Assembly: GCF_024734405.1 (NCBI RefSeq)
Contig: NZ_CP059556.1
Coordinates: 2,914,001-2,978,000, forward strand
From: Saccharopolyspora gregorii
GTDB taxonomy: Bacteria; Actinomycetota; Actinomycetes; Mycobacteriales; Pseudonocardiaceae
Reading direction: 5' to 3'
DNA length: 64,000 bases
Under the pieces are notes generated by a model, which had not been told where the DNA came from, did not search any database, and saw nothing but the letters and a program-made list of their open reading frames with translations. Numbering within the stretch: the first letter of the stretch is position 1; every line of letters starts with the position of its first letter. Positions 13,246-40,139 of the stretch are shown one piece after another. A program made the translations under genes and the position numbers.

Positions 13246-14004
13246 ATGACCCGGACAGAGCGCACAGCCACCCGGCAGCGGGTACCGCACTCGTTCCCGT
13301 ACGTGCTGATGTACCACTCGGTGTCCGAGTACACCGACGACCCGTACCTGGTGACCGTGGACCCGGCGCGCTTCGAGCGGCAGCTGCGCTGGCTGCGGGC
13401 CCGCGGCTGCACCGGGGTGTCCATGCGGGAGCTGCTGGCGGCGCGGCGGGCCGGGCGGGCCCGCGGGCTGGTGGGCCTGACCTTCGACGACGGCTACACC
13501 GACTTCGCCGAGGTGGTGCACCCGCTGCTGCGGCGCTTCGGCTGGACGGCGACGGTGTTCGTGATCTCCGGGATGCTCGGCGGGCACAACCGGTGGGACC
13601 CGGCGGGCCCGCGGAAACCGCTGATGACCGAGGAGCAGGTCGCGGAGGTCGCCGCCGCCGGGATGGAGATCGGTTCGCACAGCGTGCAGCACCGCAGGCT
13701 CACCGAGCTCGAACCGGCGGAGCTCGCCGCGGAGGTCGGCAAGAGCCGCCCGGTGCTGCAGGCCATCTCCGGGCAACCGGTGGACGGCTTCTGCTACCCG
13801 TACGGCGCGGTGGACGCGGCCGTCGTCGCCGCCGTCCGCGAAGCGGGCTACGGGTACGGCTGCGCCATCTGGCGCTCCGCGTCGTCCGGGACGCACGCGC
13901 TGCCCCGGACCTACGTCGGCGACCGGGACGGGACGCTGCGGCTCGACGCGAAGCGCGTCCGGCACGTGCTCGCCGCCGACTCGGGAATCCTGCGGTTTCG
14001 GTAG
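13246..14004 (+). CDS. polysaccharide deacetylase (CE4/NodB family)
   Basis: 252 residues with the NodB signature: a first motif LTFDDGYTD near residue 82 (catalytic base and metal aspartate), SHSVQHRRL near 145 (metal histidines) and CYPYGAVD near 182. These enzymes remove N-acetyl groups from GlcNAc-containing polymers. There is no signal peptide, so it is cytosolic or exported by another route. The ATG at 13246 has GAGGAAGG upstream. It opens the surface-glycan cluster but is separated from the next gene by 192 bp, so it may be its own transcript. Confidence 0.88.
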   Translation: MTRTERTATRQRVPHSFPYVLMYHSVSEYTDDPYLVTVDPARFERQLRWLRARGCTGVSMRELLAARRAGRARGLVGLTFDDGYTDFAEVVHPLLRRFGWTATVFVISGMLGGHNRWDPAGPRKPLMTEEQVAEVAAAGMEIGSHSVQHRRLTELEPAELAAEVGKSRPVLQAISGQPVDGFCYPYGAVDAAVVAAVREAGYGYGCAIWRSASSGTHALPRTYVGDRDGTLRLDAKRVRHVLAADSGILRFR

Positions 14005-14196: not shown

Positions 14197-15591
14197 GTGA
14201 CCCAGCATCACCTCGCGCTGGCGGTCAACGGGCGGGAACGCCAGCTGTCCGATCGGCTGGTGGCCTACCAGGACCGGTCGGAGGAGGACGCGGTCCGCCG
14301 CGTCGCCGGGCTCGACGTCCCGCTGCCGGGCACCCGGCAGGAAGCGGTGGTGATCCTCGGCCTCGGCTACGTCGGGCTGCCCACCGCCTGCGGGCTCGCC
14401 GCCCGCCGCTCCCGCGTCGTCGGCGTCGACATCAGCGAGCAGCGGCTGCGGGACATCGCCGACGGGGACGTGGACCTGCCGGAGGGGGAGCGGGCCGTGC
14501 TGCACGAGGCGCTCGGCGACGGGACGCTGCGGCTCGCCGAGGACCCGTCCGCGCTGGCCGAGGCCGACACCGTCGTGGTGTGCGTGCCGACCCCGGTGGA
14601 CGACGAGCGGAGCCCGGACCTGGCGGCGCTGCGGTCCGCCTGCGCGACCGCGGTGGCGCACGCCCGCTTGGGGCAGACGATCATCCTCACCTCCACGACG
14701 TTCGTCGGCACCACGCGGGAACTGCTGGTGGAACCGCTGCGGCGGCGCGGGCTGGCCGTCGGCAGCCAGGTGCACGTGGCGTTCAGCCCGGAGCGCATCG
14801 ACCCCGGCAACCACGACCACTCGCAGCGGCACACCCCGCGCATCGTCGGCGGCGTCACCCCCGAGTGCTCGGCGCGGGCGGCGCGGGTCATCGGCGACCT
14901 CACCGACTCGGTGTACCTGGTGAGCTCCCCGGAGGCGGCGGAGCTGACCAAGCTGTACGAGAACATCTTCCGCGCCGTGAACCTGGCGCTGGCCAACGAG
15001 ATGGCCGACATCTGCAGCGCGCTGGAGCTGGACCCGATCGAGGTGACGATCGCGGCGGGCACCAAGCCGTACGGCTTCCTCGGCAGCTTCCCCGGGCCGG
15101 GCGTCGGCGGGCACTGCATCCCCTGCGACCCGCACTACCTGCTGTGGCAGCTGCGGGAGCGGGGCGTGGCCGCGCCGATGATCGACCAGGCGATGCGGTC
15201 CATCGACCTGCGCCCGGACCAGGTGGTGCGCCGCGCCGAGCAGCTGCTGGCCGCCGCGGGCACCCCGGCGGCCGGGGCTCGGGTGCTGATCGCGGGCGTG
15301 AGCTACAAGGCGGGCGTGCGGGACCTGCGGGAGTCCCCGGCGCTGCCGATCATCGCCGGGCTCACCCGGCTCGGCGCGGACGTGCGCTACCACGACCCGC
15401 TCATCGGGGAGGTCGTGCTGCCCGACGGGTCCACGCTGACCGGGGAACCGGAACCGCGCGGCGCGGACTGGGACCTCGTCGTCGTGCACACCGTGCACCC
15501 CGGGCTGGACTACTCGTGGGCGGGGGACTGCCCGCAGGTCCTCGACGCGACCTACCAGTTCGACCTGGCCCCGCACCGGCAGGTCGTGTGA
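14197..15591 (+). CDS. UDP-N-acetyl-D-mannosamine dehydrogenase-like nucleotide-sugar dehydrogenase
   Basis: 464 residues in the UDP-Glc/ManNAc dehydrogenase family: NAD-binding ILGLGYVGLPTA near residue 53, central domain with AELTKLYENIFRAVN near 247, and the catalytic cysteine motif GGHCIPCDPHYLLW near 305. Two successive four-electron steps oxidise the sugar C6 alcohol to a carboxylate, giving a uronic acid. An unusual 45-residue N-terminal extension precedes the Rossmann fold. GTG at 14197 follows GGGGGAGGAAAC. It starts a run of genes that overlap or nearly touch through 26432. The carboxylate it makes may be the substrate of the ATP-grasp ligase next door (inference). Confidence 0.88.
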   Translation: MTQHHLALAVNGRERQLSDRLVAYQDRSEEDAVRRVAGLDVPLPGTRQEAVVILGLGYVGLPTACGLAARRSRVVGVDISEQRLRDIADGDVDLPEGERAVLHEALGDGTLRLAEDPSALAEADTVVVCVPTPVDDERSPDLAALRSACATAVAHARLGQTIILTSTTFVGTTRELLVEPLRRRGLAVGSQVHVAFSPERIDPGNHDHSQRHTPRIVGGVTPECSARAARVIGDLTDSVYLVSSPEAAELTKLYENIFRAVNLALANEMADICSALELDPIEVTIAAGTKPYGFLGSFPGPGVGGHCIPCDPHYLLWQLRERGVAAPMIDQAMRSIDLRPDQVVRRAEQLLAAAGTPAAGARVLIAGVSYKAGVRDLRESPALPIIAGLTRLGADVRYHDPLIGEVVLPDGSTLTGEPEPRGADWDLVVVHTVHPGLDYSWAGDCPQVLDATYQFDLAPHRQVV

Positions 15592-15594
15592 GGG

Positions 15595-16950
15595 ATGCGC
15601 ACCCCGGAACCGGCCGGCCTCGACACCGCCACGCCCGCGGTGGTGTTCAAGCTGGACCCGAACGTGCTGCACCACGGCGGGCTCGGGCTGATCCGCAGCC
15701 TGGGCCGCGCCGGGGTGCCGGTGTACGCGGTGCACGAGGACCCGATGGCGCCGGCCGCGCACTCCCGCTACCTGCGCGGCCGCTGGTGGTGGCGGCCGGA
15801 GCTCGCCGACCCGGAGCGGATCAACCTGGGGCTGGCGGCGCTGGCGGAGAAGCTCGGCAGGCCCGCGGTGCTGTTCCCCACCGACGACGCCGCCGCGATC
15901 CACCTGGCCGAGCACGGCGCGGCGCTGCGGCACTGGTTCCGGTTCCCGGACCCGCCGCCGGAGCTGCCGCGGGAGGTCGCGGGCAAGTTCACCCTGCAGG
16001 ACGTGTGCCGGGACCTGGGGATCCCGACGCCGCGCGCCGAACTCGTGCGCACCAGGGCGGAGGCCGCCGAGTTCGCCGCCGAGACCGGCTACCCGCTGGT
16101 GGCGAAGCTCGCCACGCCGTGGACCTCCGGCGGCCGGGCGAAGGTCCGCAGCACCTCCATCCTGCGCACGCCGCGGGACCTGCGGGAGCTCGGCGACGCG
16201 TGGGACGAGCAGGAGACCGAGCAGCAGCGGGCGGGACTGCTGATGCTGCAGGAGTACGTGCCCGGCGGCAGCGGCAACGACTGGTTCTTCCACGCCTACC
16301 GCGGGTCCGGCGGCTGCCGGCCTGCGTTCACCGGCGTGAAGCTGCGCTCCTACCCGGCGCACGCGGGCCTGACCACGCTGGGCCGCTGCCTGTCCAACAC
16401 GGTGCTGCGCGCGCAGGCGACGGAATTGTTGCGGCGCCTGGACTTCCGCGGCATCGCCGACCTGGACTTCCGGTTCGACCGGCGGGACGGCAGCTACCGG
16501 CTGCTGGACTTCAACCCCCGGCTGGGCGCGCAGTTCCGGTTGTTCCGGGACTCCGCGGGCATCGACGTGGTGCTGGCGGCCTACCTGGACCTGACCGGGC
16601 AGCCGGTGCCGGAGGGCCTGCCGCCGGTGGGCCGCCGGTTCCTGGTGGAGAACTACGACCCGCTCGGCGCGGTCGGCTACTGGCGCCGCGGCGACCTGGG
16701 GCTGCGGCAGTGGGTCCGGTCGGTGTGGCGGGCGGACGAGCTCGCGTGGTTCGCCCGCGACGACCTGGCGCCGTTCGCGCTGATGTGCGGGTGGATGGGC
16801 CGCCGCGCCCTCACCCGCAGGTTCGCGCCCCGCACCGGCGTGCAGGTGGTGGAGCCGCCGCGGTACCGCGAACGGATCGAGCGGGACGCGGGGGCGGCAA
16901 TCCGGCAGCGGCGACGGTCGCCGTATGCGGTCGAGGAGGGACACAGATGA
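15595..16950 (+). CDS. ATP-grasp ligase in the surface-glycan operon
   Basis: 451 residues with an ATP-grasp core: an N-terminal pre-ATP domain (about 1-115, FKLDPNVLHHGGLG), nucleotide-binding strands VAKLATPWTSGG near 162 and LMLQEYVPGGSGND near 215, and the metal-binding end LLDFNPRLGAQFR near 303. Such proteins form amide bonds by activating a carboxylate with ATP. It sits directly after a uronic-acid-forming dehydrogenase and overlaps the flavoprotein gene by 4 bp (ATGA), which suggests amide modification of a uronic acid or attachment of an amino acid. The substrate pair is unknown. Confidence 0.8.
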   Translation: MRTPEPAGLDTATPAVVFKLDPNVLHHGGLGLIRSLGRAGVPVYAVHEDPMAPAAHSRYLRGRWWWRPELADPERINLGLAALAEKLGRPAVLFPTDDAAAIHLAEHGAALRHWFRFPDPPPELPREVAGKFTLQDVCRDLGIPTPRAELVRTRAEAAEFAAETGYPLVAKLATPWTSGGRAKVRSTSILRTPRDLRELGDAWDEQETEQQRAGLLMLQEYVPGGSGNDWFFHAYRGSGGCRPAFTGVKLRSYPAHAGLTTLGRCLSNTVLRAQATELLRRLDFRGIADLDFRFDRRDGSYRLLDFNPRLGAQFRLFRDSAGIDVVLAAYLDLTGQPVPEGLPPVGRRFLVENYDPLGAVGYWRRGDLGLRQWVRSVWRADELAWFARDDLAPFALMCGWMGRRALTRRFAPRTGVQVVEPPRYRERIERDAGAAIRQRRRSPYAVEEGHR

Positions 16951-18176
16951 ACGACACCGTCGACGTCGCCATCGTGGGCGCCGGTCCGTACGGGCTGTCG
17001 CTGGCCGCGCACCTGCGGTCGGCCGGGGTCAGCTACCGGCAGTTCGGCATCCCGATGGACCTGTGGCGCAGCAGGATGCCGCGGGGCATGTTCTTGAAAT
17101 CGCAGGGGTTCGCCTCGAACCTGTCCGACCCGGACCGGTCGCACACGTTGCGGAACTTCTGCCAGGAGACCGGGCACGGCTACGCCGACTACGGCGTGCC
17201 GGTATCGCTGGAGAACTTCATCTCCTACGCCGACTGGTTCCGCGAGCAGCGCGGCCTGGAGGTGGAGGAGGTGCTGGTGACCGACGTGGACCGGCAGGCG
17301 GGCGAGTTCGAGCTGACCCTCGCCGACGGCGGCACCGCGAAGGCCCGCTCGGTGGTGGTCGCCGCGGGGGTGCAGCACTTCCCGCGCACCCCGGAGGTGT
17401 TCTCCGACCTGCCCGCCGAGCTGTGCACGCACAGCTCCGAGCACACCGACCTGTCCGGGTTCGACGGCGCCTCGGTGCTGGTGATCGGCGCGGGCCAGTC
17501 CGCGCTGGAATCGGCGGCGCTGCTGCACGAGCACGGCGCCGACGTGCGGCTGATCGCGCGCGCCCGGAACGTGGTGTGGAACGGGCGGCCGCTGCTGCCG
17601 GACCGGCCGCTGCTGCGCCGGATGCGGGAGCCGGAGGCGGGACTCGGCTCCGGGCTGTCCACCTGGTTCTACTCCGAGCACCCCGACCTGTTCCGGCACC
17701 TGCCGGAGAGCCAGCGGGTGCTGCGGGCGCGCACCGCGCTCGGGCCCGCCGGGGGGTGGTGGCTGCGCAGCCGCGTCGAAGGCGTGCTGCCGGTGCACGT
17801 GGGGCACACCGTGGACTGGGCGAAGACGGTGGGCGACCAGGTGCGGCTGGGAGTGCGCACCTTCGCGGGCGGGGGCCGCGAGTTCACCGCCGACCACGTG
17901 ATCTGCGCGACCGGCTACCCGCCGGACCTGGAGCGGCTCGCGTTCGTGAACTCGAGGCTGCGGTCGCGGCTGCGGACGCTGGACCGCACCCCGCGGGTCG
18001 GGGCGGACTTCGAGTCCTCGGTGCCGGGCCTGTTCTTCATCGGGGCCGCGGTGACCCCGAGCCACGGCCCGGTGATGCGCTTCGTCTACGGCGCCGACCA
18101 CGCGGTGCGGCGCGTCGGTGCCCGGCTGGCCTCGACCTCCGGCGCTCGGCGGGTCCGGGCCGGGGTGGCCGGATGA
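16947..18176 (+). CDS. FAD/NAD(P)-binding oxidoreductase (flavin monooxygenase-like)
   Basis: 409 residues with two dinucleotide-binding motifs: VAIVGAGPYGLSLAAH near residue 7 (FAD) and VLVIGAGQSALESAAL near 175 (NAD(P)H), and a late ATGYPPDLE motif typical of flavin monooxygenases and lysine-hydroxylase-like proteins. It may oxidise an amino or sugar group of the glycan precursor. It lies between the ATP-grasp ligase and the phosphoglycosyl transferase with ATGA overlaps on both sides. No membrane segment. The reaction cannot be told from sequence alone. Confidence 0.78.
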   Translation: MNDTVDVAIVGAGPYGLSLAAHLRSAGVSYRQFGIPMDLWRSRMPRGMFLKSQGFASNLSDPDRSHTLRNFCQETGHGYADYGVPVSLENFISYADWFREQRGLEVEEVLVTDVDRQAGEFELTLADGGTAKARSVVVAAGVQHFPRTPEVFSDLPAELCTHSSEHTDLSGFDGASVLVIGAGQSALESAALLHEHGADVRLIARARNVVWNGRPLLPDRPLLRRMREPEAGLGSGLSTWFYSEHPDLFRHLPESQRVLRARTALGPAGGWWLRSRVEGVLPVHVGHTVDWAKTVGDQVRLGVRTFAGGGREFTADHVICATGYPPDLERLAFVNSRLRSRLRTLDRTPRVGADFESSVPGLFFIGAAVTPSHGPVMRFVYGADHAVRRVGARLASTSGARRVRAGVAG

Positions 18177-19537
18177 GCATCGCCGACCTGCGGTCCGGCC
18201 CCGGCCCCGTGCCGTGCCGGTGGCGCGCCCCGGTGCGGTCCGGGGCGCGCGGGGTGCCGCGGCTGCTGCCGCTGGTGCTGTGGCCGCTGGTCGACGTGGT
18301 CGCGCTGACCGCGGTGGTGCTCGTGCTGGGCGTGCCGGTGCTGCCCGCGGCGCTGTACGTGGTGGCGGTGCTGCTGGCGGTGGGCGTGGACGGCGGGCAC
18401 CGGGCGCGGATCTGCCTGCGCGTCGGCGACCAGGTGCCGCGGCTGGTGCTGGACGCCGCGGTGCCCGCCGCGCTGCTGCTGCCGTGGACCGGCGCCGGGT
18501 GGCTGGTGCCCGCGGGGGCGGGCGGGCTGGTGCTGGCGCGCCTCGCCGGGGTCGCCGGGCTGCGGGCCGCGCACCGGCGCGGGCGGCTGGTGGAGGTGGT
18601 GCTGGTCGTGGGTGCCGGGGCCACCGGGGTGCGGATCTCCCGCGCGCTGCTGGAGCACCCGGAGTTCGGGCTGCGGCCGTTGCTGCTCGCCGACGAGCCG
18701 GTGCCGGCGGCGGTGCCGGTGCCGGGCCGGCCGCGGCAGCTGGCCGAGCTGGTGGCGCGGTACCGCGCCACCCGGGTGGTCCTGTGCGCCGCGGACACCG
18801 AAGCGGACCTGGTGGGCATCGTCCGGGCCGCCCGCCCGCTGCCCGCCGCGGTGCACCTGGTGCCCGCGCTGCCGGAGCTGGGGGTGGCGGTGCCGCAGCG
18901 GTTGCTCGACGAGGTCTGGGGGATCCCGCTGGTGCCGCTGCGCCGCTGGAACCACACCGCGGCCGCGGCTCTGATCAAGCGCGCGTTCGACGTGGTGCTG
19001 GCCGGGGCGCTGCTGGTGGTGCTGGCACCGCTGCTGCTGGTGCTGGCCGCCGTGGTCCGCCTCGGGGGCGGCGGTGCGGCGCTGTTCCGCCAGCGCCGCG
19101 TCACCGGTCCCGGCCGGTCGGCGACCGTGGTGAAGCTGCGCACCGTGCCGCGCGGCACCGCGCAGGGCTGGGCGGTGCGCCCGGCCGACACGACTCCGCT
19201 GGGCAGCTGGCTGCGCGGCACCCACTTCGACGAGCTGCCGCAGCTGGGCAACGTGCTGCGCGGCGAGATGTCGGTGGTGGGGCCGCGCCCGGAACGGCCC
19301 TGCTACGCCGAGCGCTTCGCCCGCGAGGTCCCGCGCTACCGGGACCGGCACCGGGTGCGCGGCGGCATGACGGGCTGGGCCCAGGTGCACGGCCTGCACG
19401 GGGACACCTCGATCCCCGAGCGGGCCGAGTTCGACAACCGCTACATCGAGAACTGGACGCCGTGGCTGGACGTGGTGGTCGTGGCCAGGACGGTCGGCAT
19501 CGTGCTGGCCACCGCGATGGGGGGAGACCAGGAATGA
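18173..19537 (+). CDS. polyprenyl-phosphate phosphoglycosyl transferase (WbaP/EpsL-like sugar transferase)
   Basis: 454 residues: four hydrophobic segments in the first 150 residues, a Rossmann-like middle domain (LVVGAGATGVRISRALLE), a fifth hydrophobic helix near 275 and the bacterial sugar transferase domain (about 265-450) with FRQRRVTGPG, HFDELPQLGNVLRGEMS and VGPRPERP. This family moves a sugar-1-phosphate from its nucleotide to undecaprenyl phosphate, starting repeat-unit assembly at the membrane. Key catalytic DE pair is within HFDELPQ. Overlaps both neighbours by ATGA. It marks the operon as making a lipid-linked glycan. Confidence 0.9.
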   Translation: MSIADLRSGPGPVPCRWRAPVRSGARGVPRLLPLVLWPLVDVVALTAVVLVLGVPVLPAALYVVAVLLAVGVDGGHRARICLRVGDQVPRLVLDAAVPAALLLPWTGAGWLVPAGAGGLVLARLAGVAGLRAAHRRGRLVEVVLVVGAGATGVRISRALLEHPEFGLRPLLLADEPVPAAVPVPGRPRQLAELVARYRATRVVLCAADTEADLVGIVRAARPLPAAVHLVPALPELGVAVPQRLLDEVWGIPLVPLRRWNHTAAAALIKRAFDVVLAGALLVVLAPLLLVLAAVVRLGGGGAALFRQRRVTGPGRSATVVKLRTVPRGTAQGWAVRPADTTPLGSWLRGTHFDELPQLGNVLRGEMSVVGPRPERPCYAERFAREVPRYRDRHRVRGGMTGWAQVHGLHGDTSIPERAEFDNRYIENWTPWLDVVVVARTVGIVLATAMGGDQE

Positions 19538-20670
19538 AGGTTCTGCACGTGATCACCGGTCTGGGGGTCGGCGGTGCCGAGCTGCAGCTCAGATCGATCT
19601 TGCAGCACACCCGGCACGACGCCGACGTGCTCGCGCTCTACAACCCGGGCGACGTCGCCGACATGATCACCGGGGACGGGGTCCGGGTCCGCGACCTCGG
19701 CATGACCAGCAACACGCAGCTGGGCGCCGTGCTCAAGATGCGGTCGCTGATCCGCGAGGGCGGCTACGACGTGGTGCACACCCACCTGTACCGGGCGTGC
19801 GTCTACGGCAAGCTCGCCGCCCGGCTCGCCGGGACCCCGGTGGTCGTCGGCACCGAGCACTCGATCGGCGAGACGCACCTGGAGCGCAGGCGGATGACCG
19901 CCGGGGTGCGCGGCCTGTACCTCGGCACCGACGTCTTCGCGCAGCGCACCATCGCGGTGTCGGAGACCGTGGCCGACCGGCTCGCGAACTGGGGGATGCG
20001 CGCAGAGAAGATCACCGTGATCCCGAACGGCGTCGACTTCGGCCGGGTGTCGTTCGACCCGGACGCGCGGTCGCGGGTGCGCGCCGAGCACGGCATCGAC
20101 GACCGGGCGCACGTGATCGGCGTGCTGGGCAGGCTGGACGCGAACAAGCGCTTCGACCTCGTCATCGAGGCGGCCTCCCCGCTGCTGGGCGAGGGCGCGA
20201 AGCTGCTCGTCGTCGGCGGCGGCGCCGAGCGGGAACGGCTGGAGCAGCAGGCGGCGGCGCTGGGCGTCGCCGACCACGTGGTCTTCGCCGGGGAACGCCA
20301 CGACGTGTCCGCGATGCTGTCCGCGTTCGACCTGTTCGTGGCCTCCTCCAAGCAGGAGACCTTCGGGCTGTCGGTGCTGGAGGCGCTGGCCAACGGCATG
20401 CCGGTGCTGTACACGACCTGCCCTGCGCTGGAGGGCGTGCACACCGATCGGGCCCGCCAGGTGCCCGGCGACGTCGAGGGAATGCGCTCGGAGATCGCCG
20501 CCGAGGTCACCGACCGGCGCCCGCGCGGCGACGTGCCGGTGATCCGCGACCTGTACGGCATCGAGGCCGTCACCGGCCGCATCGACGACCTCTACGAGCG
20601 GCTGCGCTCCGGGGGCAGGCGCGTCGCCGGCCGGGAGCTGGCCACCGAGCAGGGCGGAGGGGTCCGATGA
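19534..20670 (+). CDS. GT4-family glycosyltransferase
   Basis: 378 residues of GT-B fold. Start MKVLHVITGLGVGGAE is the typical acceptor-domain loop; VIPNGVDF near 168 begins the linker and the donor domain carries VGVLGRLDANKRFDL near 190 and the EX7E region SSKQETFGLSVLEALANG near 275. It should add a sugar from an NDP donor with retained configuration to the lipid-linked precursor. Translationally coupled to both neighbours (ATGA). Sugar specificity unknown. Confidence 0.9.
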   Translation: MKVLHVITGLGVGGAELQLRSILQHTRHDADVLALYNPGDVADMITGDGVRVRDLGMTSNTQLGAVLKMRSLIREGGYDVVHTHLYRACVYGKLAARLAGTPVVVGTEHSIGETHLERRRMTAGVRGLYLGTDVFAQRTIAVSETVADRLANWGMRAEKITVIPNGVDFGRVSFDPDARSRVRAEHGIDDRAHVIGVLGRLDANKRFDLVIEAASPLLGEGAKLLVVGGGAERERLEQQAAALGVADHVVFAGERHDVSAMLSAFDLFVASSKQETFGLSVLEALANGMPVLYTTCPALEGVHTDRARQVPGDVEGMRSEIAAEVTDRRPRGDVPVIRDLYGIEAVTGRIDDLYERLRSGGRRVAGRELATEQGGGVR

Positions 20671-21641
20671 GGGCGCTGGTCACCGGAGCCGCCGGGTTCA
20701 TCGGCTCGCACCTCGTGGAGTGGCTGCTGGCCGAGGGGAACACCGTGGTCGGCGTCGACGACCTCAGCACCGGCAGCGAGGCGAACCTGCCCGCGGACGA
20801 GCCGGACTTCCGGTTCGTGCGCGGCACCATCCTCGACGGTTCGCTGATCGACGACCTGGTGTCCGAAGTGGACGTGGTGTTCCACCTGGCCGCCGCGGTG
20901 GGCGCGTTCGTCATCCAGGAGCGCACGCTGCGCAGCCTGCTCACCAACGTGCACGGCACCGAGAACGTGCTCGACTCGGCGCACCGGCACGGGGCGCGGG
21001 TGCTGGTGGCCTCCACCAGCGAGATCTACGGCAAGAACACCAAACCGGGCCTGGCCGAGACCGACGACCGGCTGATCGGCTCGCCGCTGAAGACCCGCTG
21101 GACCTACTCCGAGGCGAAGGCCATCGACGAGAGCCTCACCTGCTGCTACGTCCGGGAACTCGGGCTGGACGCGGTGATCGTGCGGCTGTTCAACACCGTC
21201 GGGCCCCGGCAGAGCGGCCGCTACGGCATGGTGATCCCGCGGCTGGTGAGCCAGGCGCTGCACGGCAGGCCGCTCACCGTGTTCGGCACCGGGCACCAGG
21301 TCCGCTGCTTCTGCCACGTGCACGACGTGGTGCCCGCCCTGGCGCGGCTGGCGGAGCTGCCCGCCGCCAACGGGACCGCCGTCAACCTCGGCAGCACCGA
21401 GCAGGTGTCCATCATGGACCTGGCGAGCCGCGTGCTGGAGCTGACCGGCTCCGACGCGGGCGTGGTGAAGATGTCCTACGAGGACGCCTACGGCGCCGGC
21501 TACGAGGACCTGCAGCGGCGGGTGCCGGACTGCGCCAAGGCCCGCGAGCTCATCGGGTTCCAGCCCGCGCGCACCCTCGACGACATCATCCGCGCCGTCA
21601 TCGACGAGCAGACGCGCGCCGCGCAGGTCGTCTCGGCGTAA
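20667..21641 (+). CDS. NAD-dependent nucleotide-sugar epimerase/dehydratase
   Basis: 324 residues, extended short-chain dehydrogenase fold: GAAGFIGSHLVEWL at the N-terminus, FHLAAAVGAF near 77, active-site serine and YSEAK catalytic Tyr/Lys near 148-152, and NTVGPRQSGRYGMV near 178. Members epimerise or dehydrate NDP-hexoses or decarboxylate UDP-uronic acids. The position after a sugar dehydrogenase and glycosyltransferases suggests it makes one of the donor sugars. ATGA overlap with the GT4 gene; the GH18 gene begins 11 bp later. Confidence 0.9.
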   Translation: MRALVTGAAGFIGSHLVEWLLAEGNTVVGVDDLSTGSEANLPADEPDFRFVRGTILDGSLIDDLVSEVDVVFHLAAAVGAFVIQERTLRSLLTNVHGTENVLDSAHRHGARVLVASTSEIYGKNTKPGLAETDDRLIGSPLKTRWTYSEAKAIDESLTCCYVRELGLDAVIVRLFNTVGPRQSGRYGMVIPRLVSQALHGRPLTVFGTGHQVRCFCHVHDVVPALARLAELPAANGTAVNLGSTEQVSIMDLASRVLELTGSDAGVVKMSYEDAYGAGYEDLQRRVPDCAKARELIGFQPARTLDDIIRAVIDEQTRAAQVVSA

Positions 21642-21652
21642 GCGGGGCGGCG

Positions 21653-22927
21653 ATGAGCGACGACGGGGTTCGGGAAGGAGAACGAGATGGTGTGGCGACC
21701 GCGGACGGCGCCGAGCAGGACGGCCTCGGGGCGAAGCTCACCGCGTGGTGGCGGCGGACCTGGGCCGGATCCGGCCCGGACGAACCGGAACCGACCGGAC
21801 CGCGGTCCTGGCCGCCGGACCAGGGCCCCAGCCCGCGGGCGCGGCGGGTCCGGCACTTCGGCGGCTCCGTCTGGTTCATCGCGCTCATCGCGATCGCCGC
21901 GCTGCTGGTGGTCGTGATGGCGGCGCCGCGCATGATGTCGCCGTCGAAACCGGGCACGCTGGTGGTGGCGTCGCTGCCGTTCTGGAACCTCGGCAACGGC
22001 ACCACCACCGTCGTCGCCAACCGGGACTCGGTGAACGAGGTCTCGCCGTGGATCTACGGCCTCGGCGACGACGGGCGGATCACCCACCAGTTCCCGCCGG
22101 AGCGCACCGCAGAGGTCGCCGAGCAGGTCGGGAAGCTCCGCGAGGCCGGGGTGCCGGTGGTGGCCTCGCTGGCCAACATCACCGACGGGCGCTGGGCGTA
22201 CGAACCGGTCGCGAAGGTGCTGCACGACCCGCGGCTGCGGGACCGGCACGTGCGGGAGATCGTCGCGCTGGTCGAGCGCGAGGACTACGCGGGCATCGAC
22301 ATCGACTACGAGAACCTGCGCGCCGGGGACCGGGACGCGTTCAGCGCCTTCGTTACCGAACTGGGCGCGGCGCTGCGGGCCGAGCGCAAGACCCTGTCGG
22401 TGGCGGTGTTCGCGAAGGCCAGCGACGAGGGCTACGACGAGCGCAACGTCGCCCAGGACTTCGCCGTCATCGGCCGGGCCGCCGACCAGGTGCGGCTGAT
22501 GGGCTACGACTTCCACTGGGGGACCTCGCCGCCCGGGCCGGTCGCACCGATCGGCTGGGTGCGCGACGTCGTGAAGTACGCCAAGTCGAAGATCCCGCAG
22601 GAGCGGATCGTGCTCGGCATCCCGCTCTACGGCTACGACTGGGTCGGCGAGCACGGCACCAACGTCACCTGGCTGCAGGCCTTCCAGCTCGCCACCCAGC
22701 ACCGCGCCGAGACCAACTACGACCCGGTCAGCCAGACCCCGTGGTTCCGCTACACCGACGAGCGCGGCCGCGAGCACGAGGTGTGGTTCGAGAACTCGGT
22801 CAGCTCCAAGGCGAAGTTCGAAGTGGCCCGCGGCTCCGGCATCCGCGGCGTCTACCTGTGGATGTACGGCTACGAGGACACCGCCACCTGGAACCGGCTG
22901 GCGGAGAGCCTGCCGGTCGGCGAATGA
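21653..22927 (+). CDS. membrane-anchored GH18-family glycosidase
   Basis: 424 residues. A charged cytosolic stretch (1-70) is followed by one transmembrane helix at about 72-92 and an extracellular TIM-barrel. The GH18 active-site motif appears as GIDIDYENL near residue 213 (DxDxE, acid at the final Glu), with GYDFHWG near 284 and a late WMYGYED. It resembles YaaH/YdhD-type or polymer-specific hydrolases acting on beta-1,4-GlcNAc-type chains. Within a biosynthesis operon such a hydrolase may trim or release the polymer. It lies 10 bp before the GT2 gene. Confidence 0.85.
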   Translation: MSDDGVREGERDGVATADGAEQDGLGAKLTAWWRRTWAGSGPDEPEPTGPRSWPPDQGPSPRARRVRHFGGSVWFIALIAIAALLVVVMAAPRMMSPSKPGTLVVASLPFWNLGNGTTTVVANRDSVNEVSPWIYGLGDDGRITHQFPPERTAEVAEQVGKLREAGVPVVASLANITDGRWAYEPVAKVLHDPRLRDRHVREIVALVEREDYAGIDIDYENLRAGDRDAFSAFVTELGAALRAERKTLSVAVFAKASDEGYDERNVAQDFAVIGRAADQVRLMGYDFHWGTSPPGPVAPIGWVRDVVKYAKSKIPQERIVLGIPLYGYDWVGEHGTNVTWLQAFQLATQHRAETNYDPVSQTPWFRYTDERGREHEVWFENSVSSKAKFEVARGSGIRGVYLWMYGYEDTATWNRLAESLPVGE

Positions 22928-22937
22928 GGGGGCGGTC

Positions 22938-24320
22938 ATGATCCCGTGGTGGGTGCTGGCGATCGCGGTCTTCGGCGCGAACTTCACGTTGTGGGGCCTG
23001 ATCGGGCTGTTGCGGGTGCTCGACGGCTGGCGCGGCACCGCGCGGGAGCGGATGGTGCCGCGCCGGACGAAGGTCGCCGACCTGCAGGCGCACCGGGAGA
23101 AGAAGGCGCAGCCCGGGCGCCACCGGTTGCGCCGCGCCACCGGCCTGAAGCTCACCGACGTGGCCGTGCTCATCGCCGCCCACAACGAGGAGCTCGTCAT
23201 CGCGGAGAGCCTGCGGGCCATCACCCGGCTGGTGCCGCTGAAGCAGGTGCACGTGGTCTCCGACGGCTCCACCGACCGCACCGTCGAACTCGCCCGGCGC
23301 GCCGGGGTCAACGTGATCAGCACCGACGACAACGTGGGCAAGGCGGGCGCGCTGCAGGTCGGCATCCGCCGGTTCCGGCTGGTTCGCCGGTTCCGCCTGG
23401 TGATGCTGCTGGACGCCGACACCCGGGTGGAACCGGGTTACTTCCGCGCCGCCCTGCCGCTGTTCGACGATCCGGACGTGGTGGCGGTCGCGGGCTGCGT
23501 GCGCACCGAGTGGCGGGACCGCTCGCTGTCGTTCGCCGGGCGCGTGGTGGCGTTCCACCGGCAGCGGATCTACTCGATGACGCAGTACCTGCTGAAGTTC
23601 GGCCAGACCTGGCGGCACGTCAACGCCACCCACATCGTGCCGGGATTCGCCAGCGTCTACCGCACCGACGTGCTGCCGAACATCGAGGTGAACCCGCCGG
23701 GGCTGGTCATCGAGGACTTCAACATGACCTTCGAGGTCTACCAGAAGCGCCTCGGCAAGGTCGGGTTCACGCCCTCGGCGGTCGCCGCGACCCAGGACCC
23801 GGGCACGCTGCGGGACTACGTGCGCCAGTCGAAGCGGTGGTCGCTGGGGCTGTGGCAGACGGTGCGCAGGCACCCGCCGCGGCTGAACCTGTTCACCGCG
23901 ATGCTGACGCTGCTGCTGGTGGAGCTGCTCACCAGCGGGATCATGCTGGTGCTGCTGCCGCTGGTGCTGCTGGTGCTGCTGGTGCCGGAACTGGTGGGCG
24001 GGGTGCTCACCGTGCCGTGGTTCGCCGGCACCTACGAGGCGGTGTCGGGCTACCTCACGGTTCCCGCGCTGCTGCTGGGGATCGTGCTGCCGGACCTGCT
24101 GCTGACGGTCGTGGTGGCGATCATCCAGCGGCAGCCGCGGTTCCTGTTCTACGCGTGGCTGTTCCTGCCGATGCGGGTGCTGGACTCGGCGATCGCGCTC
24201 GCCGCGCTGCCGCTGGCGTGGTGGTCGCGCTCCACCGGCCGCTGGAGCAGCCCGCGCCGTCACCGGGTCGAGCCGCCCGGCGAGCAGCCCGGACTCGGCG
24301 CCGGTGCGCAGGCCGGCTGA
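22938..24320 (+). CDS. GT2-family processive membrane glycosyltransferase
   Basis: 460 residues: one N-terminal membrane helix, a GT-A catalytic domain (about 70-300) and about four C-terminal membrane helices. Seen: LIAAHNEELVIAESL, the donor-binding LLDADTRVEPG near 155, the acidic IEDFNMTFEVY near 258 and the product-site QSKRW near 299 (QxxRW). This D, DxD, ED, QxxRW set marks processive synthases such as cellulose, hyaluronan and poly-N-acetylglucosamine synthases, which also extrude the chain. With the deacetylase and GH18 protein it may form a PNAG-like machinery; that is inference. Confidence 0.88.
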   Translation: MIPWWVLAIAVFGANFTLWGLIGLLRVLDGWRGTARERMVPRRTKVADLQAHREKKAQPGRHRLRRATGLKLTDVAVLIAAHNEELVIAESLRAITRLVPLKQVHVVSDGSTDRTVELARRAGVNVISTDDNVGKAGALQVGIRRFRLVRRFRLVMLLDADTRVEPGYFRAALPLFDDPDVVAVAGCVRTEWRDRSLSFAGRVVAFHRQRIYSMTQYLLKFGQTWRHVNATHIVPGFASVYRTDVLPNIEVNPPGLVIEDFNMTFEVYQKRLGKVGFTPSAVAATQDPGTLRDYVRQSKRWSLGLWQTVRRHPPRLNLFTAMLTLLLVELLTSGIMLVLLPLVLLVLLVPELVGGVLTVPWFAGTYEAVSGYLTVPALLLGIVLPDLLLTVVVAIIQRQPRFLFYAWLFLPMRVLDSAIALAALPLAWWSRSTGRWSSPRRHRVEPPGEQPGLGAGAQAG

Positions 24321-24390
24321 GGTGGCGCGGAAGCCGGCCTGTCTCCCGCAGGTGGATGAGGACTTCCGCGCCGCGGCGCGGGACCGTGAG

Positions 24391-25248
24391 GTGGTGAACG
24401 TGCTGCGGCTGCTGATGGTGGACGACCACCTCATGCTCACCGAGGCGTTGAGCGCCCGGCTCTCCGAGGTGGCGGACGTGTGGGTGGTGGGCCGGTGCGC
24501 CACCGACGATCCGCAGCTGCCCGCCCTGGTCGACCGGTTGCGCCCGGACGTCGTCACCGTCGACGTGGACCCGGTGCGCTCCACCGGGGACCTGGTGGAG
24601 TCGGTGCGCACCCACCGGCCCGCGGTGCACGTCGTCGTCCTCACCGGTGGTCTCGACCCGCAGCGGGCGGTGGACGCGGCGCGCGCCGGGGCGGCCGGGT
24701 GGGTGCCGAAGGAGTGCGGGGTGGACGAGCTGACCACCGTGCTGCGCGGCGTGTGCCGCGGCCACGCCTGGTACCCGCCGGAGCTGCTCGGGGAGGTCCT
24801 GCGCGGGCTGCGGGCCGACGTGGTGCGCGCCGCCCGCCGGGACGGTCCGCTGGACGTGCTCAGCGACCGGGAGCTGGACGTGCTGCGCGGCATGGTCGAG
24901 GGCAAGCGCGGCAGCCGCATCGCCGCGGAGCTGCGGATCTCCGCCGAGACGGTGCGCACCCACACCCGCAGCATCCTCGCGAAGCTGCGGGTGCACTCCC
25001 AGCTGGAGGCCGTGAGCGTGGCCGCCGCGGCGGGGCTGCGCGCTCCCGGGCAACCGGGCGACTCCGGGGAGCCGGACGCTCCCGGGCGATCGAACACCTC
25101 CGGATCGCTGGACGTTCCCGGGCAGCTCGGCGCTTCCGGGCCACCGAGCACGTCGGGACGACCGGGCGCCGCCGGAGCGTCCGGCGAACCGCGCGCCCCC
25201 GGCGAGATCGGCACGATCGGCCGGCCCTCCCCGCCGGACCGGCGATGA
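24391..25248 (+). CDS. NarL/LuxR-type response regulator with Gly/Pro/Ser-rich tail, inside the glycan operon
   Basis: About 285 residues. Receiver domain 1-120: acidic pair VDDHLM, phospho-acceptor aspartate in VVTVDVDP, conserved Thr (VVLTGG) and Lys (WVPKECG). LuxR helix-turn-helix near 155-210 (LSDRELDVLRGMVEG ... SAETVRTHTRSIL). The last 70 residues are a low-complexity Gly/Pro/Ser tail. The start is uncertain: GTG codons at 24322, 24352, 24391 and 24394 are all possible; 24391 begins just before the first receiver strand. It overlaps the next glycosyltransferase by ATGA, so it is co-expressed with the enzymes and probably regulates the cluster. Confidence 0.8.
   Translation: MVNVLRLLMVDDHLMLTEALSARLSEVADVWVVGRCATDDPQLPALVDRLRPDVVTVDVDPVRSTGDLVESVRTHRPAVHVVVLTGGLDPQRAVDAARAGAAGWVPKECGVDELTTVLRGVCRGHAWYPPELLGEVLRGLRADVVRAARRDGPLDVLSDRELDVLRGMVEGKRGSRIAAELRISAETVRTHTRSILAKLRVHSQLEAVSVAAAAGLRAPGQPGDSGEPDAPGRSNTSGSLDVPGQLGASGPPSTSGRPGAAGASGEPRAPGEIGTIGRPSPPDRR
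25035..25215 (+). repeat. degenerate 15-18 bp repeats in the response regulator tail
   Basis: Imperfect units built around GCTCCCGGGC / GGTTCCGGG-like cores repeat about ten times and encode the Gly/Pro/Ser/Ala tail. Decayed tandem duplication is the simplest explanation. Confidence 0.5.
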
Positions 25249-26432
25249 ACCGCCCGCCGCGCGTCGCCACCGTGATCACCCGGCTCGAAGGCGGGGCGGG
25301 GGCGATGGCGCTGCGCGGCGCGCTCGCGCTGGACCGGCGCGAGTTCGACGTCACCGTCATCACCGGCAGCGGCGGCCGGTTGCTGCGGGACGCCGCGGCG
25401 GCGGGCGCCGCCTGCGTCCTCGAACCGTCGCTGCGCGCCCCGATCGCCCCCGCCGACGACCTGCGCGCGCTGCTGCGGCTGACGGCGCTGCTGCGGCGCG
25501 GTTCCTTCGACGTGGTGCACACCCACTGCGCCAAGGCCGGCGCGCTCGGCCGGGTCGCCGCGGTCCGGGCCGGGGTGCGGCGGATCGTGCACTCCTACCA
25601 CGGCTTCCCGTTCCACGAGTTCCAGCGCGCCCCGCGGCGGCGGACCTACCTGGCGGTGGAGCGCGCGCTGGGGCGGGTCACCGACGTGGCGCTGTGCGTC
25701 GGGACCGGGGTCGCGGTGGAAGCGGTGCGGCGCGGGCTGGTCGCCCCGGACCGGGTCCGCACCACCGGGGTCGCGGTGCCACCGGTGCCCGTCGACCCGA
25801 AGCGGGCGCGCCGCGAGCTGGGGCTGCCCGCCGCGGCGGTCGTCGTCGGCGCCGTCGGCAGGCTCGTCTACCAGAAGGCCCCGGAGGACTGGGTGGCCGC
25901 GTTGGCGGCGCTGCGGCGCCCGGACGTGACCGGGGTGTGGATCGGCGACGGGGAGCGGGCCGCGCGGGTGCGGGCGGCCGCGGCGCGGCTCGGGGCGCGC
26001 GTGGTGCTGGCCGGGGACCGCACGGACGCGCCGGAGCTGGTGCCCGCGTTCGACGTGTTCGTCCAGCCCAGCCACTACGAGGGGCTGCCGCTGGCGGTGG
26101 TGGAGGCGATGAGCGCGGGCGTGCCGGTGGTGGCCACCGCGGTGAACGCGATCGGCGACGTCGTGGTGCCCGGGGTGACGGGCCTGCTGGTGCCCCCGGC
26201 CCGCCCGGACCTGCTGGCCTCCGCGGTGTCCCGGCTGCTGGCCGACCCGGAGCTGGCCGCCGGGCTCGCCACCGCCGCGCGGCGGCGGGTGCTCGGCGCG
26301 CACACCGCGGCGGCCCTGGCCGCCGACCTCGCCGCCGCCTACCGCGGCGAGCCGGTGACCGCCGCCGCGACCGGGTCGGACCGGTTCGGCGGGCCGGTGG
26401 AGCCGCCGCGCCACATCCGTGACCTGCGGTGA
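25245..26432 (+). CDS. GT4-family glycosyltransferase
   Basis: 395 residues, GT-B fold: N-terminal ATVITRLEGGAGAMAL, VVHTHCAKAGALGRVAA near 90, VGAVGRLVYQKAPEDW near 200 in the donor domain, and QPSHYEGLPLAVVEAM near 270 carrying the EX7E catalytic/donor site. A retaining transferase for the surface glycan. Coupled to the response regulator by ATGA. It closes the polysaccharide operon; about 105 bp separate it from the kinase gene. Confidence 0.9.
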   Translation: MNRPPRVATVITRLEGGAGAMALRGALALDRREFDVTVITGSGGRLLRDAAAAGAACVLEPSLRAPIAPADDLRALLRLTALLRRGSFDVVHTHCAKAGALGRVAAVRAGVRRIVHSYHGFPFHEFQRAPRRRTYLAVERALGRVTDVALCVGTGVAVEAVRRGLVAPDRVRTTGVAVPPVPVDPKRARRELGLPAAAVVVGAVGRLVYQKAPEDWVAALAALRRPDVTGVWIGDGERAARVRAAAARLGARVVLAGDRTDAPELVPAFDVFVQPSHYEGLPLAVVEAMSAGVPVVATAVNAIGDVVVPGVTGLLVPPARPDLLASAVSRLLADPELAAGLATAARRRVLGAHTAAALAADLAAAYRGEPVTAAATGSDRFGGPVEPPRHIRDLR

Positions 26433-26536: not shown

Positions 26537-27160
26537 GTGGTGCGAACCGGATCCTTGCCCGCGCCTGCACCGCCCGGAGCGGACCGGTGGCTGCGCGGCT
26601 TGCTGCACGACCTGGGGCACGGCCTGGCGGCCGCGTCCTACTTGACCGAGGGCATGCGCTCGGAAGCGGAACTGCCCGCGCAGGCCCGCGACCGGTTGGA
26701 GCTGGTGCACCAGGAGCTGGTGCGCCTGCTGGAGCTGGTCTCGGCGGGCGGCGCCCCGGGCGAACCGGTGGCGGTGGAACTGCGCGGGCTGCTCGGCGGG
26801 CTCGCCGCGTCCCGCGCGGGAGCCGGTGCGCCGACGCTGCTGGTGCACCCGGGCGCCCCGGTGCACGTGCGCGCCGACCCCGCGGCGGTGTGGCGGATGC
26901 TGGCGAACCTGCTGGACAACGCGGCGCGCGCGGCGGGCCCGGGTGGCGTGGTGGAACTGGGGGCCACCCGCCACCCGGGCGGCGCGGTGACGGCGGAGGT
27001 CGTCGACGACGGCCCCGGTCTCGGCCGCGCACCCGCCGCGGGCAGCGGGCTCGGCCTGGGCATCGTGACCGCGCTGGCGCAGTCCTGCGGTGCGCGGCTG
27101 CACCTGGATCCGGCGCCGCGGCGGGGGACGCGGGCTCGGCTGGTGTTCCCGGCGGCGTGA
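26537..27160 (+). CDS. small soluble histidine kinase-like protein
   Basis: 207 residues without any membrane segment or sensor domain. An H-box-like LLHDLGHGLAA near residue 23 carries a candidate phospho-histidine; the ATPase half has an N-box NLLDNAARAA near 125, DDGPGLG near 158 and GSGLGLGIV near 170. It could phosphorylate the NarL-type regulator encoded 31 bp downstream, or the one at 24391. GTG at 26537 follows GGAGGGGAGCG. Input signal must come from a partner protein. Alternatively it is an anti-sigma-like ATPase, but the H-box argues for a kinase. Confidence 0.75.
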   Translation: MVRTGSLPAPAPPGADRWLRGLLHDLGHGLAAASYLTEGMRSEAELPAQARDRLELVHQELVRLLELVSAGGAPGEPVAVELRGLLGGLAASRAGAGAPTLLVHPGAPVHVRADPAAVWRMLANLLDNAARAAGPGGVVELGATRHPGGAVTAEVVDDGPGLGRAPAAGSGLGLGIVTALAQSCGARLHLDPAPRRGTRARLVFPAA

Positions 27161-27191: not shown

Positions 27192-27860
27192 ATGAGGGAC
27201 GGTTCGACGCGGGTGCTGCTCGGCGACGACCACGCGATCTTCGTGGACGCGCTGGTCTCGGCGCTGTCCGCACGCGGGTTCCCGGTGGTCGGCACCGCGG
27301 GTTCGATCGCGGGCACGGTCGCCGCGGTGCGCAGGCTGGCCCCGGACATCTGCTTGCTGGACCGGTTCTTCGGCGACGGGGACGGGGTGGCGCGGCTCGC
27401 GGAGGTGCGAGCCGCCGGGCCGGCCACGAAAGTCGTGGTGCTCACCGCCGACGGGGACGCCCGCGGGGTGCGCGGCGCGCTGGCGGCGGGCGCGGCGGGG
27501 TACGTGAACAAGATGTGCGGGCTGTCGAACCTGCTGGACGCGCTCACCGCGGTCGCGGCGGGGGAGACCGTCGTGGCGCTGGCCGCGTCCCGCGTTCCCG
27601 CCCAGCAGCAGCGCGGCGATGCGCTCGACGCGCGGCGGCTCGCCTCCTACCTGACCGCCCGCGAACGCGAGTGCCTCGGCATGCTCACCGAGGGGGCGCA
27701 GACGGCGACGATGGCGAAGTCGCTGGGGGTGTCCCCGGCAACGGTGCGCACCCACGTGCAGGCGGTGCTCACCAAGCTCGGCGTGCACTCCCGCCTCGAA
27801 GCCGCCTCCCTCGCGCTCCGCCACGACCTGATCGCCGCACCGCAGCGCTGCGTCAAGTGA
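27192..27860 (+). CDS. NarL/LuxR-type response regulator
   Basis: 222 residues. Receiver domain with GDDHAIF, phospho-acceptor Asp in CLLDRFFG near 56, Thr in VVLTADG and Lys in YVNKMCG near 108; C-terminal LuxR helix-turn-helix near 160-215 (LTARERECLGMLTEG ... SPATVRTHVQAVL). ATG 27192 follows GGGGGAGAG. It forms a two-gene unit with the kinase upstream and is followed by a strong bidirectional terminator. Confidence 0.85.
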   Translation: MRDGSTRVLLGDDHAIFVDALVSALSARGFPVVGTAGSIAGTVAAVRRLAPDICLLDRFFGDGDGVARLAEVRAAGPATKVVVLTADGDARGVRGALAAGAAGYVNKMCGLSNLLDALTAVAAGETVVALAASRVPAQQQRGDALDARRLASYLTARERECLGMLTEGAQTATMAKSLGVSPATVRTHVQAVLTKLGVHSRLEAASLALRHDLIAAPQRCVK

Positions 27861-38297: not shown

Positions 38298-40007
38298 ATG
38301 GCCAAGAGCGTGGACGACCTGGCTCAGCACGGTGAACGCGGTGGAGCGGCCGAGGACCCGGCCGAACTGGTGGCCCGCGAGGAGCAGGTCTTCGGCGACA
38401 ACCCGTTGGAAGTGCGCGAATCCGACCATTACACGCACGAGTACGTCGGCGGGTTCGTCGACAAGTGGGACGACCTGATCGACTGGAAGAAGCGCTACGA
38501 GAGCGAGGGCCGGTTCTTCATCGACCAGCTCAAGGCGCGTGGTGTCGAGTCCGTGCTGGACGTCGCCACCGGCACCGGGTTCCACTCGGTGCGCCTGCTG
38601 GAGGAGGGCTTCGAGACGGTCAGCGCCGACGGCAGCCCCCAGATGCTGGCCAAGGCGTTCAGCAACGGCCTGACCTACGGCGGGCACATCCTGCGCGTCG
38701 TGCACGCCGACTGGCGCTGGCTGAACCGCGACGTGCACGGCGAGTACGACGCCATCATCTGCCTGGGCAACTCGTTCACGCACCTGTTCTCCGAGCGCGA
38801 CCGGCGCAAGGCCCTGGCCGAGTTCTACGCCATGCTCAAGCACGACGGCGTGCTGATCATCGACCAGCGCAACTACGACGCCATCCTGGACGACGGGTTC
38901 TCCAGCAAGCACACCTACTACTACGCAGGTGACGACGTCTCCGCGGAGCCCGACCACGTCGACGAGGGCCTCGCCCGGTTCAAGTACACCTTCCCGGACA
39001 AGAGCGAGTTCTTCCTCAACATGTACCCGCTGCGGAAGAACTACGTGCGGCGGTTGCTGCGCGAAGTCGGATTCCAGCGGATCGACACGTACGGCGATTT
39101 CCAGGAAACCTACGCCGATCAGGACCCGGACTTCTTCATCCACGTCGCGGAGAAGAACTACCGAACCGAGGAAGAATTGTCGGACGTGTATTCCACGGCG
39201 GTGCACACCGCCCGGGATTACTACAATTCCGAGGACGCCGACAACTTCTACTACCACGTGTGGGGCGGCAACGACATCCACGTCGGTCTCTACAACACCC
39301 CGGACGAGGACATCGACGCCGCCTCCCGGCGCACCGTGGAGCGCATGGCGAGCAAGGTCGAGATCACCCCGGAGACCCGGATCCTCGACATCGGCTCCGG
39401 CTACGGCGGTGCCGCTCGCTACCTGGCCAAGACCTACGGCTGCAAGGTGGCGTGCCTGAACCTCAGCGAGGTGGAGAACGCCCGCAACGTCCAGTTCAAC
39501 GAGGCCGCGGGCCTCAGCGAGCTCATCGAGGTCAAGGACGGCTCCTTCGAGGACATCCCGTTCCAGGACAACGCCTTCGACCTGGTGTGGTCCCAGGACG
39601 CGATCCTGCACAGCGGTGACCGCGAGCGCGTGCTGGAGGAGGTGACCCGGGTGCTGAGCAAGGGCGGTTCGTTCGTGTTCACCGACCCGATGGCCGCCGA
39701 CACGGCGCGCAAGCGGGACCTGGGTCCGATCCTGGATCGGCTGAACCTGGACACTATGGGTTCGCCCGGCTTCTACCGGCGCGAACTGGCCCGCTTGGGC
39801 CTCCAGACGATCGACTTCGAGGACCTCAGCTCGTACCTGCCCGTGCACTACCAGCGGGTGCTGGACGTGCTGGAGTCCCGGGAGTCCGAACTGTCCGACC
39901 GCATCGGTGAGGAATATCGCACGAAGATGAAGCGGGGCCTGCGGGCCTGGGTGGAGTCCGGCAACGCCGGAAGCCTGGCATGGGGCATCATCCACGCCCG
40001 TGCATGA
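38298..40007 (+). CDS. fused glycine sarcosine N-methyltransferase / sarcosine dimethylglycine N-methyltransferase
   Basis: 569 residues with two class I methyltransferase domains. Domain 1 (about 20-285) has HEYVGGFVDKWDDLIDWKKR and the SAM motif LDVATGTGFHSVRLL, typical of glycine sarcosine methyltransferase. Domain 2 (about 290-569) has ADNFYYHVWGGNDIHVGLY and ILDIGSGYGGAARYL, typical of sarcosine dimethylglycine methyltransferase. Together they should carry glycine through sarcosine and dimethylglycine to the compatible solute betaine, using three SAM. In most bacteria the two activities are separate proteins; fused forms are known from halophilic actinomycetes. ATG 38298 has GGGAG upstream. 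Downstream genes regenerate the SAM. Likely osmotically induced (inference). Confidence 0.93.
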   Translation: MAKSVDDLAQHGERGGAAEDPAELVAREEQVFGDNPLEVRESDHYTHEYVGGFVDKWDDLIDWKKRYESEGRFFIDQLKARGVESVLDVATGTGFHSVRLLEEGFETVSADGSPQMLAKAFSNGLTYGGHILRVVHADWRWLNRDVHGEYDAIICLGNSFTHLFSERDRRKALAEFYAMLKHDGVLIIDQRNYDAILDDGFSSKHTYYYAGDDVSAEPDHVDEGLARFKYTFPDKSEFFLNMYPLRKNYVRRLLREVGFQRIDTYGDFQETYADQDPDFFIHVAEKNYRTEEELSDVYSTAVHTARDYYNSEDADNFYYHVWGGNDIHVGLYNTPDEDIDAASRRTVERMASKVEITPETRILDIGSGYGGAARYLAKTYGCKVACLNLSEVENARNVQFNEAAGLSELIEVKDGSFEDIPFQDNAFDLVWSQDAILHSGDRERVLEEVTRVLSKGGSFVFTDPMAADTARKRDLGPILDRLNLDTMGSPGFYRRELARLGLQTIDFEDLSSYLPVHYQRVLDVLESRESELSDRIGEEYRTKMKRGLRAWVESGNAGSLAWGIIHARA

Positions 40008-40059
40008 TCATCGATCGTGCGTGCGGTCGGCTCCGCTGGGCCGGTCGGCGGGGTGCCAG

Positions 40060-40087: not shown

Positions 40088-40139
40088 CGAGTGCGCAAGG
40101 ATCGAAGCAGCCAAAGAAGCTGAGAGGTGAGGTTGAGCC

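Follow-up and report, generated by a model that had tools for sequence, protein, structure and literature searches.

An exopolysaccharide operon of Saccharopolyspora gregorii with an ATP-grasp/flavoprotein pair that recurs beside different assembly machines

Several described kinds of exopolysaccharide (EPS) gene cluster resemble the operon reported here, which lies at positions 14197-26432 of a 64,000-nt stretch (2914001-2978000) of the complete 6.34-Mb chromosome of Saccharopolyspora gregorii, and which carries adjacent genes for an ATP-grasp ligase and a flavoprotein. In this text, we use the term “window” to refer to that whole stretch, and “the pair” to refer to these two genes. Gram-positive Pel loci resemble the operon in having deacetylase and glycosyltransferase (GT) genes in one locus, and there are core-sharing actinobacterial loci that carry PelF; parts of the published account of Gram-positive Pel make no mention of an ATP-grasp enzyme (Whitfield et al. 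2020, PMC7112168). The likeness to the poly-N-acetylglucosamine (PNAG) systems PgaABCD and IcaADBC, and to Streptomyces MatAB, consists of a PgaC/IcaA-related family 2 glycosyltransferase (GT2), a CE4 deacetylase and a glycoside hydrolase. With actinomycete Wzx/Wzy EPS clusters the operon shares a sugar transferase, a family 4 glycosyltransferase (GT4) and a deacetylase, and the Streptomyces clusters of this kind also have the pair. The Actinoplanes sporangium-matrix cluster wps-3 has a deacetylase and an FAD monooxygenase described as being of the PheA/TfdB type, and an ATP-grasp enzyme is not mentioned in the main text of that report (PMC13390465).

Judged from the gene content of homologous loci, the pair is a portable module that is combined with different assembly machines. 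We obtained 80 named loci from a single contig search with an ATP-grasp alignment, in which the flavoprotein was not used as a query. A flavoprotein homologue is present in the same stretch in 77 of the 80, and is no more than 600 bp away in 75. Both genes share a strand in 74 of these 77 loci, and either order of the two occurs. The pair loci span the Actinomycetota, the Pseudomonadota (Bradyrhizobium) and the Dormibacterota (a metagenome-assembled genome, MAG). Many of the 80 are from Streptomyces, so that the count is not one of independent events, and its weight comes from the more than a dozen genera represented. Patristic distances in the ATP-grasp and flavoprotein trees (the latter built with FastTree for this congruence test) correlate with r = 0.85, a value not reached in any of 2000 permutations, and the trees have 16 well-supported splits in common against 4 conflicting split pairs. 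A plasmid search for the pair gave no result, and text searches of the open-licence literature found no description of it in polysaccharide loci.

We sorted 100 fetched loci (a few genomes appear twice) by marker genes, and these fall into 21 SYN loci (GT2, a family 18 glycoside hydrolase (GH18), a nucleotide-sugar dehydrogenase and a short-chain dehydrogenase/reductase (SDR)), 4 PEL loci (PelF), 12 WZY loci (Wzy/MurJ), 37 CORE loci (the pair beside nuo, FAH and polyprenyl synthase genes, glycan genes being absent), and 26 that are other or truncated. Common to SYN, PEL and WZY loci is a five-gene core of deacetylase, ATP-grasp ligase, flavoprotein, sugar-phosphate transferase and the first GT4 (GT4a, with homologues at 45-90% in related loci), except that the transferase is unscored in one WZY locus and the flavoprotein in two. 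The PelF-type module occurs in Lentzea, Amycolatopsis and Streptosporangiaceae, and the one with Wzy/MurJ is found in Streptomyces, Nonomuraea and Planobispora; the curated cut-offs are exceeded by PelF in L084 and L085, and by Wzy_C and MurJ in L051. In the ATP-grasp tree, SYN and PEL loci are intermingled, and well-supported branches require at least two changes for PEL; WZY loci form a separate group. The shared core and the intermingling therefore indicate that the polymerisation module has been exchanged around a stable core. Outside of the Actinomycetota, the Bradyrhizobium pair (L092) is set among genes for a polysaccharide lyase, Wza, Bac_transf and Wzz, and no EPS-type deacetylase was found near the pair in this EPS locus.

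Some of these loci have additional features. Immediately upstream of the Bradyrhizobium flavoprotein/ATP-grasp pair is the polysaccharide lyase gene (L092:7627-8529). In L084, L085, L086 and L089, PelF is followed by a protein rich in transmembrane segments (9-11 predicted) that has no Pfam or NCBIfam match and lies beside the same core; L085 and L089 also carry a 657-aa protein without such matches. Next to the Streptomyces Wzy-type locus L051 is a small gene that looks chaplin-like by eye (13504-13731, - strand), and L055 has one in the same place.

Since the pair recurs beside several different polymer machines, its probable role is to add an unusual chemical group, one for which we found no published description. 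In the reading that we prefer, to which we assign a probability of roughly 0.5, this is an EPS locus in which the ATP-grasp/N-oxygenase pair attaches an N-oxidised acyl or amide decoration, for which an amine freed by the deacetylase is a plausible site; the chemistry is deduced from the enzyme families. The flavoprotein would N-oxidise a small compound that contains an amine, and the ATP-grasp ligase would join a carboxylate to an amine to give the N-oxidised decoration on the glycan; these are the two less confident steps of the scheme. The deacetylase-exposed amine is a better guess for the acceptor than a uronic carboxylate because the deacetylase accompanies the ATP-grasp gene in all 21 SYN, 4 PEL and 12 WZY loci, and the dehydrogenase is absent from the PEL and WZY loci. 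A more specific version, in which the pair is a portable decorator that adds a hydroxamate-like, metal-binding N-oxidised group to deacetylase-exposed amino sugars and has been plugged into three assembly machines, seems to us quite unlikely.

The assignments of the two enzymes come from domain matches and predicted structures. The AlphaFold model of the ATP-grasp ligase (15595-16950; PF02786; predicted local distance difference test (pLDDT) score 83) matches ATP-grasp enzymes with Z scores of 21-27, the top match being 2pn1 (26.6), with the L-amino acid ligase 3vot (23.9), PylC (23.0), PurK and PurT also among the matches; the ATP- and metal-binding residues K131, K171 and D305-x-N307-P-R are invariant. 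The flavoprotein (16947-18176; PF13434, above cut-off, and PF13738) is an FAD/NADPH protein of the N-hydroxylating monooxygenase type, and its model (pLDDT 83) best matches SsDesB and PvdA (both Z 32.7), DfoA (32.1) and KtzI (31.9). Some enzymes of the flavin-containing monooxygenase (FMO) type and YpdA are close behind (Z 30-31.6), and the assignment therefore rests also on motifs, namely GAGPYG, GAGQSA, CATGY and HSSEH, which comprise the FAD/NADPH dinucleotide motifs and ATGY. By its modelled fold the flavoprotein fits the N-hydroxylating monooxygenases and not the sugar oxidases, and N-hydroxylation is its predicted activity. In a profile alignment with SsDesB, the invariant Ser57 of the flavoprotein is at the position of the carboxylate-binding Lys107 of SidA, which would hint at a substrate lacking an alpha-carboxylate, but is too weak to use.

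An earlier sequence-only reading of this DNA had assigned the pair a different role, in which the dehydrogenase makes a uronic acid, the ATP-grasp ligase amidates or aminoacylates the carboxylate, as in teichuronopeptide-like polymers, and the flavoprotein oxidises the sugar. The three genes are directly consecutive here, their order is kept in most SYN loci, and the ATP-grasp fold relatives include amide-forming ligases, all of which would agree with this. However, a dehydrogenase homologue is found in 0 of 4 PEL, 0 of 12 WZY and 0 of 37 CORE loci bearing the ATP-grasp gene, so that the pair evidently occurs without it in PEL, WZY and Streptomyces loci, and what stays beside the ATP-grasp gene is the flavoprotein, which resembles N-hydroxylases rather than sugar oxidases. 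We consider the alternative improbable. Amidation of a uronic acid as a fixed role of the ATP-grasp ligase was rejected because the dehydrogenase is missing from most loci.

A number of observations weigh against the decoration reading. Three of the 80 loci carry the ATP-grasp gene without a nearby flavoprotein. In Streptomyces (L101-L145), the pair lies between nuoN/FAH-like and polyprenyl diphosphate synthase genes in surroundings that lack glycan genes, and an EPS-type deacetylase is missing from 9 of 14 Streptomyces genomes with such a nuo-adjacent pair. Taken together, these two facts mean that the pair can do without the EPS core; from the second it follows that the pair must also work without the deacetylase, or on another amine. 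The structure prediction that the sequence-only reading had looked to for the ATP-grasp active site bore out the fold, but this fold is shared too widely to point to a substrate. The decorated polymer is itself a prediction from genes. Finally, the operon encodes both a synthase and a lipid-carrier transferase, which makes the route of assembly ambiguous.

The same Streptomyces loci, stand-alone near nuo in many genomes and often in genomes lacking the deacetylase, would be expected if the pair made a diffusible small molecule (e.g., an N-hydroxylated amide) that is unrelated to the glycan, its genes being merely co-transcribed with EPS genes. This is a possibility that we take seriously but doubt, since in the Actinomycetota the pair has been placed independently in EPS loci with three types of assembly, and it is in an EPS locus of Bradyrhizobium as well.

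With respect to the decoration reading, the remaining genes would provide the glycan. On the evidence of its gene families (assigned with Pfam and NCBIfam), it is well supported that the region is an EPS operon. The genes from 14197 to 26432 form a run on the + strand, as do the flanking genes described below, with intergenic gaps of -4 to 11 bp according to the gene calls. There are five 4-bp overlaps, four in succession from the ATP-grasp gene through the SDR gene and one between the response regulator and second GT4 (GT4b) genes; the other gaps are 3 bp (dehydrogenase/ATP-grasp), 11 bp (SDR/GH18), 10 bp (GH18/GT2) and 1 bp (GT2/response regulator). The deacetylase gene is 192 bp upstream of the dehydrogenase gene, and a kinase/regulator gene pair begins 104 bp downstream of GT4b. 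Scans for sigma-70 promoters and terminators gave nothing useful.

The CE4 polysaccharide deacetylase (13246-14004; PF01522, E 4e-29; motifs TFDDGY and HSVQH) has PgaB/IcaB/HfsH-like matches below cut-off. On a simple hydrophobicity scale, a hydrophobic N-terminus is lacking in the window protein and in 28 of 30 homologues, the two exceptions being short gene calls, and the enzyme is therefore probably cytoplasmic and expected to work on the glycan before it is exported. It would remove acetyl from a sugar to expose an amine. The dehydrogenase (14197-15591; TIGR03026, above cut-off) is of the UDP-N-acetylhexosamine (UDP-HexNAc) 6-dehydrogenase type, with the GGHCIPxDP active site (GVGGHCIPCDP) and with Cap5O as the nearest solved structure (E 1.4e-51). 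It is below the WecC and TviB equivalog cut-offs; given the UDP-HexNAc type, it probably makes an acetamido-uronic acid. The extended SDR (20667-21641; PF01370), a putative nucleotide-sugar epimerase or decarboxylase, is nearest to UXS1 among solved structures (4lk3, E 1.3e-49), yet many epimerases are close. Together, the dehydrogenase and SDR would supply a HexNAc-uronic acid or a derivative.

The polyprenyl-phosphate sugar-1-phosphate transferase (18173-19537; PF02397, E 1.4e-49; TIGR03025, 272 bits, slightly below cut-off) is the sole Bac_transf protein in a genome-wide search, and would transfer a sugar phosphate to polyprenyl phosphate. The lipid-linked sugar would then be extended by GT4a (19534-20670; NCBIfam GT4 matches, the best being TIGR03088 at 135 bits, below cut-off) and GT4b (25245-26432; PF13692/PF00534). 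The GH18 protein (21653-22927, from an ATG at 21653; PF00704, E 3.6e-28; relatives YdhD/YaaH) has one N-terminal transmembrane segment and, so anchored, would trim the chain. Regulatory genes are those for a LuxR-type response regulator within the operon (24322-25248, with an uncertain start at 24304-24418; PF00072 and PF00196) and, downstream, for a short histidine kinase-like HisKA-HATPase protein (26537-27160; PF02518), whose linkage is kept in relatives, and a second LuxR-type response regulator (27192-27860; PF00072 and PF00196), likewise linked in relatives.

The PgaC/IcaA-like GT2 membrane synthase (22938-24320) is the strongest candidate for the enzyme that would polymerise and extrude the chain. 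It has the motifs of processive synthases (DGS-D, DADT, EDFN and QSKRW, of the patterns DAD, ED and QxxRW) as well as membrane segments, and most orthologues have the same, but it reaches only 69.8 of the 422.3 bits required by the PgaC/IcaA equivalog TIGR03937. No Wzx or Wzy is present among the operon proteins, so that of the features of a Wzx/Wzy-dependent locus only the polyprenyl-phosphate transferase is found. A Pel assignment would call for PelF and PelG; GT4a and GT4b score 34 and 37 bits, respectively, against a PelF cut-off of 100, and the operon has no PelG-like gene with multiple transmembrane segments. A dedicated Wzx/Wzy system elsewhere in the genome was considered and rejected, as there is no genome-wide match to Wzy_C or to Polysacc_synt, and the second of two MurJ proteins is, in the stretch inspected around it, outside of any EPS cluster and beside genes that by eye are MurT/GatD-like. 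ABC2_membrane proteins occur elsewhere in the genome, with none in the operon.

The operon could alternatively serve two products, a lipid-linked oligosaccharide for the cell wall or for protein glycosylation, and a PNAG-like chain made by GT2. The PgaC-like character of GT2 would suit such a division, as would one distant actinobacterium (G317) in which GH18 adjoins GT2 without the other operon genes, indicating that GH18 and GT2 are themselves a pair. We regard this as unlikely, given that gene order and content are fixed across genera and that no separate exporter or ligase was found nearby.

The order of genes at 14197-26432 is kept in all sampled Saccharopolyspora, in Actinopolyspora and Halopolyspora, and in related MAGs. 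Ratios of nonsynonymous to synonymous substitution (dN/dS) are 0.17-0.49 for the operon genes in comparison with Saccharopolyspora sp. NFXS83, and are below 0.5 against two relatives from the deacetylase through GT4b. Conserved order and low dN/dS together show that the genes are real and evolve under purifying selection. The ATP-grasp gene is present in 5 of 5 genomes searched from the same genus (77-89%, the nearest named homologue being that of Saccharopolyspora sp. NFXS83 at 89%) and in 3 of 30 other genomes from the family; across the phylum, some relative, in many cases a distant one, is present at E ≤ 1e-20 in 35 of 396 sampled genomes. GT2 is rare, with 2 of 396 phylum genomes at E ≤ 1e-60. 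Much of the sequence-only reading thus agrees with our results: a tightly packed, coupled glycan operon, initiation on polyprenyl phosphate, the absence of a flippase and polymerase, GT2 as the candidate exporter, and the occurrence of the gene set in other actinobacteria. The genes it listed are as described, but it left out the deacetylase, the anchored GH18, the SDR, the response regulators and the HisKA/HATPase protein.

Elsewhere in the window, genes for a two-domain methyltransferase, MetK, a PfkB kinase, MetH, SahH and a mycobacterial-type methylenetetrahydrofolate reductase follow each other at 38298-48848 (+), which looks like an S-adenosylmethionine-recycling operon, perhaps for glycine betaine synthesis. 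A protein with a PI-PLC-X domain and a signal-like N-terminus is encoded at 51606-52598 (+).

If the decoration reading is correct, the pair would be a two-enzyme modification module independent of the mode of polymer assembly, and the matrix polysaccharides of actinobacteria and some rhizobia could bear an undescribed N-oxidised, possibly metal-binding group. A polysaccharide core can apparently exchange all of its machinery for polymerisation and export (synthase, PelF-type or Wzx/Wzy) and keep initiation and decoration, and such swapping allows the relation between a gene locus and the chemistry of its polymer to be tested.

In comparison with known systems, the operon differs from Gram-positive Pel in lacking PelF and in having a GT2 synthase, polyprenyl transferase, dehydrogenase, ATP-grasp ligase and flavoprotein. 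Unlike the PNAG systems, it scores far under the PgaC and PgaB cut-offs, its deacetylase is not predicted to be secreted, and it has an extra lipid-carrier transferase and dehydrogenase. Actinomycete Wzx/Wzy clusters have a Wzy or MurJ, whereas this operon has neither. Pyl, of UDP-yelosamine synthesis in Bacillus cereus, is an ATP-grasp enzyme that ligates a carboxylic acid to an amino sugar, acting on a nucleotide sugar after an aminotransferase; our operon has no aminotransferase. The flavoprotein resembles the siderophore N-hydroxylating monooxygenases (SsDesB, DfoA, PvdA and KtzI) in fold (Z ~32) and nucleotide-binding motifs, but has only 16-20% identity to them, has no adjoining siderophore synthetase, and is nearly always accompanied by the ATP-grasp ligase. 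The backbone of the operon is ordinary, and what is new is the decoration pair and the exchange of assembly modules.

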